From contig LURN01000036.1 of assembly GCA_001628405.1 (NCBI GenBank), forward strand, positions 1-49,582: 49,582 nucleotides of DNA. Reading direction: 5' to 3'. Below, piece after piece: positions 11,948 through 19,306 of the stretch (its first letter is position 1; the number at the start of each line of letters is the position of its first letter). The stretch comes from Candidatus Thioglobus sp. REDSEA-S12_B1. GTDB taxonomy: Bacteria > Pseudomonadota > Gammaproteobacteria > PS1 > Pseudothioglobaceae. The position numbers were made by a program, and so were the translations under genes. The notes beneath the pieces are model-generated. The model ran no database searches, was not told the DNA's origin, and saw only the letters and a list, made by a program, of their open reading frames with translations.

Positions 11948-12637
11948 CTATGGCATTACAATGTTTTTGAGCTGCTCCTTGAGAAGATTTAAAAGTGTAG
12001 CTTTCTGTTTTTCATTAAAGCGAGTGATTGGACCTGAAACTACAATTGCCCCAAGAAGGCTGTCAGTACTCGAGAGAACAGGAACAGCTAGTGCAAAAAG
12101 AGATGGGTTGTGTTCATTAATAGACAAATAATAACCTTTGTCTCTTATTTCTTTATAAAAACCTTTTTTATCATTTTGACGTTTACCATAGGCAAGAATA
12201 ATTCGCCCTGAAGCTCCTCGATTAAGATCTAATCTAGATCCTTGTTCAATGTTATGCCTAACCTCATCTCTAGAGTGAGCTCTGTATAGACAAATACGCT
12301 TATTATCCTCCTCAACAAAAAAAGATGAAGTCTCTCCAGATACATCCCGAATGTAATCAACTATCGGACGAATCTGTTCGAGATGGTTACTTTGAGTATA
12401 GATTGCACTTAAGTACAAAGCCTGGGTTCCAATGACATATTCTTTGTTTTTAAGGCGTGACACATAACCATAGTCCTCAAGAGTTGAGAGAATACGATAA
12501 GTTGTTGAAACGTTAAAATTGAGCTGATCACAAATCTCTTTAATAGAAAAGCTTGACTTGTCTAAGGAGTACATCGACAAGATTTGTAAGCACTTTTCAA
12601 TGGCGTTATATTTCTTATCAATAGATCTAGCTTTCAT
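11948..12637 (-). CDS. IclR-family transcriptional regulator
   Basis: 229 residues. The N-terminal winged helix-turn-helix is at about residues 12-70 (SIKEICDQLNFNVSTTYRILSTLEDYGYV). The C-terminal ligand-binding domain is about 80-229, with the GASGRIILAY and LFALAVPVLSSTDSLLGAIVVSGP motifs of the IclR effector domain. It is the first gene of the minus-strand betBA operon and divergent from aceA, 195 bases away. It could therefore control the bet genes, the glyoxylate genes (the classic IclR target in E. coli), or both. A glyoxylate- or pyruvate-type ligand is plausible but not visible. Confidence 0.9.
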   Translation of the reverse strand: MKARSIDKKYNAIEKCLQILSMYSLDKSSFSIKEICDQLNFNVSTTYRILSTLEDYGYVSRLKNKEYVIGTQALYLSAIYTQSNHLEQIRPIVDYIRDVSGETSSFFVEEDNKRICLYRAHSRDEVRHNIEQGSRLDLNRGASGRIILAYGKRQNDKKGFYKEIRDKGYYLSINEHNPSLFALAVPVLSSTDSLLGAIVVSGPITRFNEKQKATLLNLLKEQLKNIVMP

Positions 12638-14203: not shown

Positions 14204-16000
14204 ATGATTAGTAATTCATCTCAAAAACTCTCTTTATCAATTGCTATAAAGATTTTAGCTGGCTTCGAGGGTCACTACGAAAATATCAAAAGCGCATCCA
14301 TTGAGGCAAAAAGGTGTTTTGAGGAGAAAGAATGGGAAAAAATTGATAGAGATTCAAAATTACGGCTGAATTTCTATGATGTACGAGTCAACGATTTTTG
14401 TAAAAAACTCTCTCAAGAATTAAAACAAAAAAATCTATATGGGGCAAAGGCAGAATTCAACAAATCCCAGAGTTTGGATAAGTTTAACTCGGATTTTTGG
14501 AAGAGTACAAAGAGCGTTTATACTGAATTAATCACTTCTCATAAGCAACCTGAACTTGCCGAGACTTTTTACAATTCAGTGTTTTGTAGAATATTTTCAA
14601 GGAATTTTTATAACAATCAATATATTTATACTAAACCGTGTGTTTCCTTAAATTATATTGATATGGATGAACCTGTTATTGACAGCTATTTTGTTGAAAA
14701 TAATCAACTAAATAAAATACTTAGATCTGTTCTCAAAAGTTACAAGTTTAAATGCAAATTCGGAAATTTTGACCAGGATATTGAAAGACTTCAAGAGCAA
14801 CTCTTTAAGCAAGTTCCAAGGCTGGAGTCTGAAGTATTTGAGATTCAATTTATCAATACACCTTTTATAAGAGGTAAATGTGCATACATTGTTGGAAAAA
14901 TTGTTACACAGTTACACGCAGATATCCCGGTTCTTATAGCGCTTCTAAATGATGACAATAAAGGGCTTTATGTTGACAGTCTGTTGACCGATGCTGGAGC
15001 TATATCTATTGTATTTAGTTTTTCTAGATCGTATTTCTTTATAACAACTGACTACCCTTCTGCAATTGTTGAGTATCTGAAAGAATTACTTCCAGGAAAA
15101 ACAAGGGCTCTTCTCTACAGTTTGATTGGCCTCCACAAACATGGCAAAACGCATTTGTATAGGCATTTTTTAAAATATTCAAAAATCACAAGTGAAAAGC
15201 TGATTGTTGCTCCAGGCATCAAAGGAATGGTTATGTCAGTTTTTACTTTCCCGATGTACCCCTACGTATTTAAAGTGATTAATGATAGGTTCGCACCGCC
15301 AAAAATGGGGACAAAAGAAATGGTTAAGGACAGATATTATTTTGTAAAAAATCATGTCAGAATTGGAAGATTAGCGGACACGTGGGAGTTTTCTAATGTT
15401 GCTTTTCCTCTTAAAGATATTGACGACACTTTATTGCAAGAATTAAAAAAGAAAGCTGCTTCAAACATTGAGATTGAGGATGATTTGTTAATCGTCAAAC
15501 ATATGTATATAGAAAACAAAATGACCCCACTAAATATCTACCTTGAAACGGCCAATAAAAAACAACAAAACCATATAATTAATGACTATGGAAAGGCAAT
15601 TGATGAGCTTATAAATTCAAATATCTTTCCTGGTGACATGTTAACCAAAAATTTTGGTGTAACTCGACAAAATAGAGTTGTTTTTTATGATTATGATGAA
15701 ATTACTTTGATGAGCACTCCAGTCTTTAGAAAGATTCCGAAAGCAAAAACTTACGAACAAGAGATGGCTTCAGAGCCTTGGTATTATGTGGGACAAAATG
15801 ACGTTTTTCCAGAGGAATTTAGATACTTCATGTTTCCAAATACATTCATGAAGGAGACCTTTAATAAGCGATTTAAAAAACTTCTTGATGCGGATTACTG
15901 GGTTTCTATTCAAGAAAAAATAAAAGAAAATGGTGTGATGGATTATTATCCCTATGGTTCAGAAACACGTATGTGCAAAATTTATAAGGAAAAATTGTAA
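14204..16000 (+). CDS. aceK: Isocitrate dehydrogenase kinase/phosphatase
   Basis: Phosphorylates and dephosphorylates isocitrate dehydrogenase, switching carbon between the TCA cycle and the glyoxylate shunt. 598 residues (E. coli AceK 578). The ATP-binding loop APGIKGMVMSVFTFPMYPYVFKVI lies at about residues 337-360. The FAPPK segment, the DMLTKNFGVTRQNRVVFYDYDEI catalytic region and the C-terminal FRYFMFPN block are all characteristic. Its TAA shares one base with the ATG of the next gene (TAATG at 15998-16002), indicating coupled translation with the RraA-like gene. Confidence 0.95.
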   Translation: MISNSSQKLSLSIAIKILAGFEGHYENIKSASIEAKRCFEEKEWEKIDRDSKLRLNFYDVRVNDFCKKLSQELKQKNLYGAKAEFNKSQSLDKFNSDFWKSTKSVYTELITSHKQPELAETFYNSVFCRIFSRNFYNNQYIYTKPCVSLNYIDMDEPVIDSYFVENNQLNKILRSVLKSYKFKCKFGNFDQDIERLQEQLFKQVPRLESEVFEIQFINTPFIRGKCAYIVGKIVTQLHADIPVLIALLNDDNKGLYVDSLLTDAGAISIVFSFSRSYFFITTDYPSAIVEYLKELLPGKTRALLYSLIGLHKHGKTHLYRHFLKYSKITSEKLIVAPGIKGMVMSVFTFPMYPYVFKVINDRFAPPKMGTKEMVKDRYYFVKNHVRIGRLADTWEFSNVAFPLKDIDDTLLQELKKKAASNIEIEDDLLIVKHMYIENKMTPLNIYLETANKKQQNHIINDYGKAIDELINSNIFPGDMLTKNFGVTRQNRVVFYDYDEITLMSTPVFRKIPKAKTYEQEMASEPWYYVGQNDVFPEEFRYFMFPNTFMKETFNKRFKKLLDADYWVSIQEKIKENGVMDYYPYGSETRMCKIYKEKL

Positions 16001-16476
16001 TGAAATCAACTTGTGACATTTCTGATGAAATGCATCCAAATGTTCAATATCTAAAACCAGTTTTTCAGAGCTTTGGTAAAAAAACTAGGTTTTCAGGTCG
16101 AATAGTTACCATTGAATGCTTTGAAGATAACTCACTTGTTGAGGAAGCACTAAGGTCTGATGGAAGTGAATGTGTCTTAGTTATTGATGCAGGTGCTTCA
16201 TTAAACTGCGCAATGATGGGAGATAAAAGAGCTACAGACGCAATCAAAAACTCATGGGAAGGTATTATTATTAATGGCCCCATAAGGGATTCTGCTGAAA
16301 TCAATACTATGAATATTGGTATTCGTGCACTTGGAACATGTCCTAGAAAGAGCATTAAAAAAGGGGTTGGCAAAAGAGATGTCAATGTATCATTTTCAAA
16401 TGTAAAATTTATCCCGGGACACCATCTTTATGCCGATGAAGACGGGGTAATTGTATTAGAAAATAAGGCAGATTAA
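16000..16476 (+). CDS. RraA-like protein (possible HMG/oxaloacetate aldolase type)
   Basis: 158 residues of the RraA / 4-hydroxy-4-methyl-2-oxoglutarate aldolase family. The VLVIDAGASLNCAMMGD core, the WEGIIINGPIRD loop and the HHLYADEDGVIVL ending are family hallmarks. D75 and R96-D97 form a D-X20-R-D arrangement, which in aldolase-type members lines the metal/substrate site; family members can decarboxylate oxaloacetate or cleave hydroxy-oxo-diacids. The other known role is inhibition of RNase E (RraA). It is flanked by one-base TAATG overlaps with aceK and glcB, so it is made with the glyoxylate enzymes, which argues for a metabolic job. This is inference. Confidence 0.8.
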   Translation: MKSTCDISDEMHPNVQYLKPVFQSFGKKTRFSGRIVTIECFEDNSLVEEALRSDGSECVLVIDAGASLNCAMMGDKRATDAIKNSWEGIIINGPIRDSAEINTMNIGIRALGTCPRKSIKKGVGKRDVNVSFSNVKFIPGHHLYADEDGVIVLENKAD

Positions 16477-18617
16477 TGAGTAATGACCATCAAATAATTA
16501 ATGAAATAAAGGTTGATAATAAATTTTTTGATTTTATTGATAAAGAGGTTTGTGAAGGTTTAGACATTTCTGCCAAAGAATTCTTCCAGTCATTATCAAA
16601 TATATTGGCTAAACATCAAGATGAAAACACGAATCTTTTAGAGAAGAGACAGGAGCTACAATCAAAGATTAATCACTGGCATCAAAACAACAAAAGGATT
16701 GACCAAAATAAATACAAAAGCTTCCTTCAAGATATAGGCTATATCGCTTCTGATCCTGGAGAATTCAATATAGAAGTTGAGGAAGTAGATGATGAGATTT
16801 CACTGGTTTCTGGACCTCAGCTTGTTGTCCCAATAACTAACCAAAGATTCGTTCTCAATGCAGTAAATGCAAGATGGGGTAGTCTTTTTGACTGTCTTTA
16901 TGGAACCAACGTGATCCCAAACAGAGGAAGCATGACAACTTCCTTCGCTCATAATCTTCAGCGTGTAAACCGAACTGCTGAGCTAGCATGTGAATTTCTT
17001 GATGAGATAGCGCCCCTCAAAGGTGCCTCATATAGACAAATTACTTCTCAAGTAAAGTACACTGGAGCTCTAATTTTTAATCTTGATAATGGAGAGCTTG
17101 CCACACTAATTAACCCTGAACAGTTCATAGGTCATACAGAAACTGGAAACATTCTTCTAAGAAATAATAACCTCCATCTAGAAATTGTTTGTGACCAACA
17201 AAAAAGTCTTCACAAAAGCGGAATATTTGATGTCATTTTAGAATCTGCTGTAACAACTATTGTCGATTTTGAGGACTCTGCTGCAACAGTTTCTAACGAA
17301 GAGAAAATTCATGCCTATAGGAATTATCTAGGTCTTATGAAGCGAGATCTCAACTCTACATTCACTAAAAATGGACATACAATCAGCAGATCCTTAAACA
17401 AAGATAAAGAATATATAGATATAGAGGGTGAAAAACTGACTCTTCCAGGAACTAGTTTAACTCTTGTTCGAAACGTTGGAATTCACATGAATACGAGCAT
17501 GGTAAGAAATCGAGATGACTCATCTATACCTGAGGGCATTCTAGATACAATGGTTACCTCACTAATTGCACTTCATGACTTAAAACTTAAGATAAATTCA
17601 AAAAAAGGAAGTATATACATTGTTAAACCAAAGCTTCATGGACCGGATGAAGTGAAATTCACAAATGACCTATTTGAATCCGTCGAAAATGCTTTATCAA
17701 TCAAAAAAAATACCCTAAAGATTGGAATAATGGATGAAGAGAGAAGAACCACTCTAAATCTGAAGGCTTGTATTTATGAGGCAAAAAACCGCATAATATT
17801 TATTAATACTGGTTTCCTTGATAGAACTGGCGATGAAATTCATACATCTATGATGGCTGGTGCAATGCGATGCAAAAATCTGATTAAGGAAGAGGACTGG
17901 TTCTCTGCCTATGAGGAAAATAATGTCAGTGTTGGGCTCGAGTGTGGACTATACAAAAAAGCTCAAATTGGAAAAGGCATGTGGGCACAACCAGACCAAA
18001 TGAGGGAAATGCTTGACAACAAGATGGTTCATCTAGAGGCTGGTGCAAGCTGCTCTTGGGTGCCCTCTCCAACTGCAGCAACTTTACATGCTACCCACTA
18101 TCATCGATTTGATGTTTTTAATCAGCAACAAAAAATATTATCTAAAAACAAAAAACCTAATCAAGATAACTTACTTGTGATTCCTTTTTTAAAACTGGCA
18201 GATCAGCTATCTGAGGAAAAGATTATTAAGGAAATAAATAATAATGCTCAAAGTATTTTGGGATATGTTGTAAGGTGGATTAACCAAGGAATTGGTTGCT
18301 CTAAAGTTCAAGATATTAACCATGTTGGACTGATGGAGGATAGAGCTACGTTAAGAATTTCCTCACAGCATATGGCAAACTGGCTTTACCATGAAATTTG
18401 CTCTAAGGAGCAGGTTAATCAAGCATTTCAAGAAATGGCTTTGATAGTTGATGAACAAAATAAACATGACCCTCACTATATACCAATGGCGCCAAAATAC
18501 GACTGCTATGCATATAAAGCTTCAACAGAGTTAGTCTTTGAAGGAGCTAAGCAGGCAAATGGATACACTGAAGACATTCTAATCAAATATAGACGAAAAT
18601 TTCTTGAAGCCAATTAG
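16476..18617 (+). CDS. glcB: Malate synthase G
   Basis: Condenses glyoxylate with acetyl-CoA to malate, the second glyoxylate shunt step. 713 residues (E. coli GlcB 723), far longer than the A type (about 530). The VDFEDSAATV motif, the GIMDEERRTTLNLKACI active-site block, GLECGLYKKAQIGKGMWAQPD, and INHVGLMEDRATLRISSQHMANWL near the C-terminus are diagnostic. The ATG overlaps the preceding TAA by one base. A weak GACAA/TTGTC stem follows the stop. A GlcG-like gene comes next, echoing the glcG-glcB neighbourhood in E. coli. Confidence 0.96.
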   Translation: MSNDHQIINEIKVDNKFFDFIDKEVCEGLDISAKEFFQSLSNILAKHQDENTNLLEKRQELQSKINHWHQNNKRIDQNKYKSFLQDIGYIASDPGEFNIEVEEVDDEISLVSGPQLVVPITNQRFVLNAVNARWGSLFDCLYGTNVIPNRGSMTTSFAHNLQRVNRTAELACEFLDEIAPLKGASYRQITSQVKYTGALIFNLDNGELATLINPEQFIGHTETGNILLRNNNLHLEIVCDQQKSLHKSGIFDVILESAVTTIVDFEDSAATVSNEEKIHAYRNYLGLMKRDLNSTFTKNGHTISRSLNKDKEYIDIEGEKLTLPGTSLTLVRNVGIHMNTSMVRNRDDSSIPEGILDTMVTSLIALHDLKLKINSKKGSIYIVKPKLHGPDEVKFTNDLFESVENALSIKKNTLKIGIMDEERRTTLNLKACIYEAKNRIIFINTGFLDRTGDEIHTSMMAGAMRCKNLIKEEDWFSAYEENNVSVGLECGLYKKAQIGKGMWAQPDQMREMLDNKMVHLEAGASCSWVPSPTAATLHATHYHRFDVFNQQQKILSKNKKPNQDNLLVIPFLKLADQLSEEKIIKEINNNAQSILGYVVRWINQGIGCSKVQDINHVGLMEDRATLRISSQHMANWLYHEICSKEQVNQAFQEMALIVDEQNKHDPHYIPMAPKYDCYAYKASTELVFEGAKQANGYTEDILIKYRRKFLEAN

Positions 18618-18812
18618 ACAAAGTATTTAAATTGTCAATTTTATTGGAAATAGGTATTTCTAATTTCCTATCGCGCCTCACCTATAAGTAAATGTCAAAC
18701 CGCAATATATGTCTCAGTTGATTTGACCTAAATTGCCTTTGATAATTACTCAATCTATTCATTGAAAATGAAGTTATATTATTACCAAAGTAATCAATAT
18801 AAAGGGGTTTTC
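18618..18812 (+). promoter_or_regulatory. Leader region before the GlcG-like gene: palindrome and 5' UTR hairpin
   Basis: After glcB there are 195 bases before the leader ORF. GAAATAGGTATTTC at 18647-18660 is a perfect 14-base palindrome set in TTGGAAAT...ATTTCTAA, reminiscent of IclR-type half sites. At 18776-18800, ATATTATTAC and GTAATCAATAT pair around CAAA with one bulged C, and the Shine-Dalgarno AAAGGGG (18801-18807) follows immediately. This suggests translational or transcriptional control of the next ORFs; no convincing -35/-10 was found. Confidence 0.4.
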
Positions 18813-18890
18813 ATGAATCATATTATGTATGAGCAATTCAAACAGAGTTTGCTGCAAAGCATATTTGCTATTCCGGGGGTTATAGTATGA
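18813..18890 (+). CDS. Short leader ORF (25 residues) overlapping the GlcG-like gene
   Basis: ATG at 18813 with a good Shine-Dalgarno AAAGGGG six bases upstream, ending TGA at 18888-18890. The product starts MNHIMYEQFK and ends AIPGVIV. The stop overlaps the next start as ATGA, and the GGGGG that serves the next gene lies inside this ORF. It looks like a translated, coupled leader; whether the peptide itself matters is unknown. It could also be the remnant of a truncated gene. Confidence 0.45.
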   Translation: MNHIMYEQFKQSLLQSIFAIPGVIV

Positions 18891-19306
18891 AAAAAGTACT
18901 AAAACTTACACTTGAAGATACAAGGAAAATGATGGATTGCGCCATCAATAAAGCAATTGAGATTGGTATAGATATGGATATCGCTATTGTGGACGATGGT
19001 GGTCACCTCATGCTATTTACAAGAATGGATAATGCAAAAATCACCAGCATTAATGTCTCTATAGATAAGGCATTTACTGCTGCAGCAGCTAGAAAAGCAA
19101 CTTTAGAGTATGGCAAATCTGTGATCAATCACGGACCAGCTTTTGGCATCCAAACCTCCCACCAAGGTCGTTTTTGTGTTGTTGGGGGTGGGTTGCCGCT
19201 TTTTGTTGATGGTCAGATTGTTGGCGGTATTGGTTGTAGTTCCGGAAGTGCAGACCAAGATATAATCGTTGCTCAAGCAGGCATAGACGCATTACTTTCT
19301 AGTTAG
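18887..19306 (+). CDS. GlcG/HbpS family protein (DUF336)
   Basis: 139 residues of the GlcG/HbpS (PF03928) family. The core DIAIVDDGGHLMLFTRMDNAK, the KAFTAAAARKAT segment, the glycine-rich VVGGGLPLFVDGQIVGGIGCSSGS and the terminal DQDIIVAQAGIDAL are typical. Biochemical role is not settled: HbpS relatives bind haem, and GlcG of E. coli is an uncharacterised member of the glycolate operon beside malate synthase G. Here too it follows glcB, supporting a link to C2/glyoxylate metabolism. It begins inside the end of a short leader ORF. Convergent with the DUF924 gene. Confidence 0.85.
   Translation: MKKVLKLTLEDTRKMMDCAINKAIEIGIDMDIAIVDDGGHLMLFTRMDNAKITSINVSIDKAFTAAAARKATLEYGKSVINHGPAFGIQTSHQGRFCVVGGGLPLFVDGQIVGGIGCSSGSADQDIIVAQAGIDALLSS

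Follow-up and report, generated by a model that had tools for sequence, protein, structure and literature searches.

On sequence comparison, the short open reading frame (ORF) that precedes a glcG-like gene in the window, i.e., the whole stretch of 49,582 nucleotides analyzed here, can be firmly assigned as a diverged segmental duplicate of the 5' end of mcl, a relative of malyl-CoA lyase genes that is present intact elsewhere in the same genome. This duplicate probably serves glcG both as a captured promoter and as a translated leader cistron, indifferent in its amino acid sequence, that would feed ribosomes to glcG. Under such a mechanism, the RNA would begin at the captured mcl-type promoter, ribosomes would enter at the start site inherited from mcl and translate 25 codons whose amino acid sequence is irrelevant, and the same ribosomes would stop at the ATGA and restart on glcG. 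Gene glcG would thereby gain an mcl-like expression of its own, replacing the rraA-glcG coupling found in relatives. We infer the promoter activity and the translational coupling from sequence. A more specific proposal falls a little short of an even chance, namely that one duplication created a natural bicistronic element in which glcG and the malyl-CoA lyase gene are under the same regulator and the truncated mcl start, as a ribosome feeder, replaced the rraA-glcG ATGA coupling.

The GlcG/HbpS-like gene (139 aa; PF03928, E 4.7e-37) is located at 18887-19306 on the forward strand, and its closest copies on named contigs are labeled as PS1 clade, SUP05 cluster or gamma proteobacterium. Upstream on the same strand are an rraA-like gene of the RraA family (16000-16476; Pfam PF03737, and NCBIfam PRK09372 above cut-off) and the immediate neighbor glcB, encoding malate synthase G (16476-18617; NCBIfam PRK02999 above cut-off). 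The layout of the glcB-glcG gap described in an earlier note on this DNA was borne out by direct reading of the sequence. The motif AAAGGGG (18801-18807, + strand) precedes an ATG at 18813, which opens a leader ORF of 25 sense codons (18813-18890, + strand; peptide MNHIMYEQFKQSLLQSIFAIPGVIV), the TGA of the leader (18888-18890) overlaps the glcG ATG at 18887 as ATGA, and a GGGGG (18875-18879, + strand), a possible Shine-Dalgarno (SD) sequence of glcG separated from its ATG by 7 nt, is located within the leader ORF. An in-frame TTG start at 18762 would lengthen the leader; in the alignment, the ATG at 18813 is the position matching the mcl start. When the 269-nt gap was shuffled 5000 times with dinucleotides preserved, an ATG-initiated ORF of at least 25 codons ending at the glcG ATGA arose in 223 shuffles, and such an ORF plus an SD-like motif in only 21, thus the combination of leader ORF and SD is unlikely by chance.

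Origin of the leader from mcl

The leader DNA was searched in 29 genomes of the genus, its own included. An orthologous leader was found in four other genomes (G022, G006, G007 and G025), and a second matching place was found in the own genome and in others. In the own genome, the leader region matches the mcl 5' region (G000:C44:2939-3101) with 79% identity over query bases 25-188 (E 7.4e-33), where a gene of 317 aa has the same promoter and SD in front of it and starts with the same codons. The product of this gene matches malyl-CoA/beta-methylmalyl-CoA lyase in PDB (5ugr, 389.7 bits), and matches the CitE and malyl-CoA lyase models of NCBIfam with scores under their curated cut-offs. As judged from the DNA match and the alignment, the duplicate covers the promoter, the SD and the first codons of mcl. 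Codons 1-21 read MSHIIYEPVRQRLQRSELAVP in the own-genome parent and MNHIMYEQFKQSLLQSIFAIP in the leader (18813-18875), and the AAAGGGG is inherited, an identical motif preceding mcl in several genomes including the own one. The match ends within the mcl coding sequence, at query base 188, which corresponds to leader codon 22, and the leader frame stops thereafter. The final four codons of the leader form a junction, perhaps derived from an old rraA tail, for which the match is too short for a test. An origin of the leader as an rraA relic alone was ruled out because codons 1-21 align with mcl.

The upstream edge of the duplicate is marked approximately by a decayed copy of the 3' half of a tRNA-Glu gene (18638-18670, + strand; local alignment, 0 of 1000 mononucleotide shuffles), at which ARAGORN called no tRNA. 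An intact tRNA-Glu gene is located directly before mcl (L051:2831-2907). The remnant was found upstream of the leader at three of the five leader loci (the window, G022 and G006; 0/1000 shuffles each), was marginal in G007 (62/1000) and was undetectable in G025 (521/1000). With this remnant included, the copied piece covers about 18638-18875, consisting of part of the tRNA-Glu gene, the mcl promoter block, the 5' UTR with AAAGGGG and 21 codons.

Gene mcl was found in 16 of the 29 genomes; in G007, a genome that is 70% complete, the leader was found and mcl was not. When the 22-aa mcl start was searched against 83 genomes of the family (E up to 0.5), it matched at 22 places: the five glcG leaders, 16 mcl gene starts and one frame of 329 aa in G032. 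The source of one unannotated leader ORF has been traced to a front-end duplicate of another gene.

Beside mcl there is also a second tRNA-Glu-like gene, called at 13 loci and mostly with the anticodon TTC. Because the anticodon is TTG (Gln) in L052:3793-3869 and TTT (Lys) in L058:3886-3962, L062:3952-4028 and L064:4060-4136, this anticodon may be drifting or the gene may be decaying.

Gene order and history in the genus

This glcG is present in 10 of the 29 genomes, and its upstream junction takes three forms. At five loci glcG is preceded by the leader, which in every case has 25 codons and ends in the same ATGA. At four loci (G021, G027, G026 and G001) rraA itself overlaps glcG by ATGA. At the remaining locus, in G008, glcB is followed by a remnant of the rraA tail (L067), which ends KEKL, and then by glcG, with an intact rraA, ending KEKASL, upstream of glcB. 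The persistence of an rraA tail before glcG despite the intact rraA upstream suggests that a short duplication accompanied the entry of glcB between rraA and glcG. Four of the leader genomes (G000, G025, G007 and G006) have the order rraA, glcB, mcl-derived leader, glcG. In the fifth, G022, the leader and glcG (L072:2398-2885) are located between other genes away from the rraA-glcB cluster, as if the captured promoter, leader and glcG had moved as one unit.

Four of the leader genomes yielded an rraA; these split from G008, G021, G027, G026 and G001 in the rraA tree with a support of 100, and the same four split from G008 and G026 in the glcB tree with a support of 99. The five leader copies themselves group with a low support of 27, and G006 is joined to the leaderless G008 in the glcG tree (support 63), both of which count against a simple single origin of the leader. 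We infer that the rraA-glcG coupling is older and that the mcl-derived leader came later. The genus thus offers a natural series for the rewiring of expression: coupling to rraA, glcB followed by an rraA tail, the mcl-derived leader, and leader plus glcG placed elsewhere.

In the citT case of the Lenski experiment, a duplication reportedly placed a promoter before another gene. Tandem duplication has also been described as a way in which transferred genes are activated (PMC11111574). Both resemble the present case in that a duplicated stretch brings a promoter before another gene; here, in contrast, source and copy do not at present adjoin one another in tandem, a tRNA gene fragment and 21 codons were copied along, and the arrangement comes from natural genomes instead of a selection experiment. 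In a literature search that extended to few of the subscription papers, the matches listed contained no on-point case of promoter capture by partial duplication, and no on-point leader made of a truncated gene copy was found.

Probable translation of the leader and coupling to glcG

The conservation of the leader in relatives, raised by the earlier note, divides into that of the peptide and that of the frame. The peptide sequence drifts across the five leaders, with a mean dN over mean dS of about 1.2 (a hand-calculated average over codons 2-25 of 10 pairs), and substitutions from the consensus are spread evenly, numbering 20, 19 and 15 at codon positions 1, 2 and 3. With dN/dS about 1, there is no sign of amino acid constraint across the five leaders. 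In mcl itself, codons 2-21 in 8 of 15 copies (28 pairs) give dN values of at most 0.07, with dS from 0 (one pair) to 1.9 and seven pairs undefined. The frame, on the other hand, is kept open and free of indels over 25 codons in all five leader-bearing genomes. A neutral simulation gives P = 0.006 for five open frames, or P = 0.037 with the start codon held, these P values being modest and based on a star tree with the consensus as ancestor and five related sequences. Furthermore, no indel is found in the 75-nt sense frame, compared with at least three indel events in the spacer from the -10-like site to the ATG (P = 0.025, counting three in 32 nt).

If the peptide were a regulatory leader or attenuator acting by metabolite sensing or ribosome stalling, the arrangement expected would be that seen here, a metabolic gene preceded by a short ORF whose SD is strong. 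This reading is nonetheless extremely unlikely: the amino acids drift freely at dN/dS about 1, no codon run is present in the five peptides, a simple scan found no terminator-like site in 18600-18900, and Rfam gave no match in 18560-18960 up to E 1. Scarcely any credence can be given to a functional small protein derived from the mcl N-terminus, for which the open frame in five of five genomes would speak, given that no amino acid constraint was seen and that the leader peptide has no Pfam match. Thus, of the two possibilities that the earlier note had left side by side, a regulatory peptide is not borne out, and translational coupling gains indirect support from the five indel-free 25-codon frames ending in ATGA. 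The leader also carries a warning that a small ORF that is open and positionally conserved need not encode a functional peptide.

The ATGA overlap of stop and start, as expected of a translationally coupled pair, is present in all five leader genomes. Ribosome binding was approached through predicted anti-SD energies. The leader SD of the window has -7.3 kcal/mol, the same as in 7 of 15 mcl copies, and the leader SD is strong in four of the five genomes (-7.3 to -11.2 kcal/mol), with -3.1 in G025. For the glcG SD, the predicted energy is -9.3 kcal/mol in the window (the GGGGG), whereas the other four genomes with a leader have -2.5 to -3.5 and the five leaderless loci -6.1 to -9.2; in G025 both the leader SD and the glcG SD are weak. 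A strong leader SD together with a weak glcG SD fits loading at the mcl-type start and restart at the ATGA. In the window, the GGGGG at -9.3 kcal/mol may render coupling unneeded, so that both routes are open.

These energies also bear on a passive alternative, in which the captured promoter works, the 21-codon stub is debris and glcG uses its own SD. Such a by-product would agree with the unconserved peptide and with the strong GGGGG before glcG in the window, but we consider it rather unlikely, because all five frames are open and indel-free at a neutral-like divergence and because the glcG SD is weak in four of the five leader genomes. The preferred explanation, a leader cistron translated without regard to its peptide, resembles engineered bicistronic design expression cassettes, in which the gene to be expressed follows a short first cistron; here that cistron is natural and derived from another gene. 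Among overlapping gene pairs, 13 of 14 were strictly coupled, and the SD requirement for termination-reinitiation differs by pair, according to a previous study (Huber et al. 2019, PMC6728339). As far as described there, the ATGA termination-reinitiation pairs share with the present arrangement the ATGA overlap, an upstream frame with its own SD and a downstream SD of varying strength; they differ in that here a 25-codon stub from an unrelated enzyme gene forms the upstream cistron and that the coupling here is read from sequence.

The putative promoter block and the hairpin

The captured mcl-type promoter block is 64 bp long (18717-18780, + strand), contains TTGATAATTACTCAA (18739-18753) and ends in the -10-like hexamer TATATT (18775-18780), which was read from the alignment. 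Of the 18 mcl and glcG copies aligned, 17 keep this length of 64 bp and one is 1 bp shorter, whereas the distance from the block to the ATG ranges from 30 to 102 nt across the same copies. The fixed length of the block against this varying distance favors the TATATT/TATAGT at its end as the putative -10. A simple scan with the sigma-70 consensus proposes another site, TTGATT-17-GATAAT (18718-18746), with one site compared to 1.6 expected from shuffles. Among the five glcG-leader copies, the mean pairwise identity is 0.89 in the first 45 bp of the block, against 0.73 for third positions of glcG, which points to constraint on the block. An 80-bp stretch farther upstream has 0.64; the leader codons have identities of 0.81 (codons 1-12) and 0.68 (codons 13-25).

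A bulged inverted repeat of 12 pairs (18774-18802, + strand) overlaps this hexamer with its 5' arm. The earlier note had reported a 10-bp hairpin ending exactly at AAAGGGG; the repeat with its one bulged base is real, but it comprises 12 pairs and its 3' arm reaches into the motif as far as the second A. If the hairpin were an RNA or operator element controlling the leader start, its pairing should stand out among the five leader copies, and indeed 88.3% of the cells are pairable, exceeding every slid version (25-53%). However, this value is not above that of shuffles (mean 89.0) and no pair has changed on both sides in the five copies. The hairpin in the window is near chance, because its folding z is -1.51 and an equal or better fold is reached by 16 of 200 shuffles. 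Upon free folding, the stem appears in the window and G022 and is shortened in G006, and it is not seen in G025 or G007. At the corresponding place, the mcl copy of the own genome forms another stem, of 8 pairs (-3.0 kcal/mol), which might be taken in favor of such an element, but the leader-type fold is not seen in any of the 13 mcl copies folded. Eight of these provide a fair comparison covering the same stretch, because in the other five the 5' UTR is at least 55 nt and the folded stretch falls short of the -10-like site. In addition, the overlap of the 5' arm with the conserved -10-like hexamer means that the hairpin may not be fully transcribed. A controlling role of the hairpin is therefore very unlikely; as a conserved RNA element it is unsupported by the z of -1.51, the lack of covariation and the lack of the fold in mcl copies, and we regard it as a coincidence of AT-rich sequence located within or close to the start site.

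Within the own genome, TTGATAATTACTCAA has 23 sites with at most two mismatches, compared with 14 for a reversed control, and the three sites with one mismatch look coding by eye, so TTGATAATTACTCAA was rejected as a regulon motif. A literature search for a regulator of malyl-CoA lyase gave only unrelated papers among the matches listed. A gene of the IclR type is located in the window at 11948-12637, divergently oriented to isocitrate lyase (family model scores under the cut-offs), and its product is a possible candidate for the regulator of this glyoxylate cluster.
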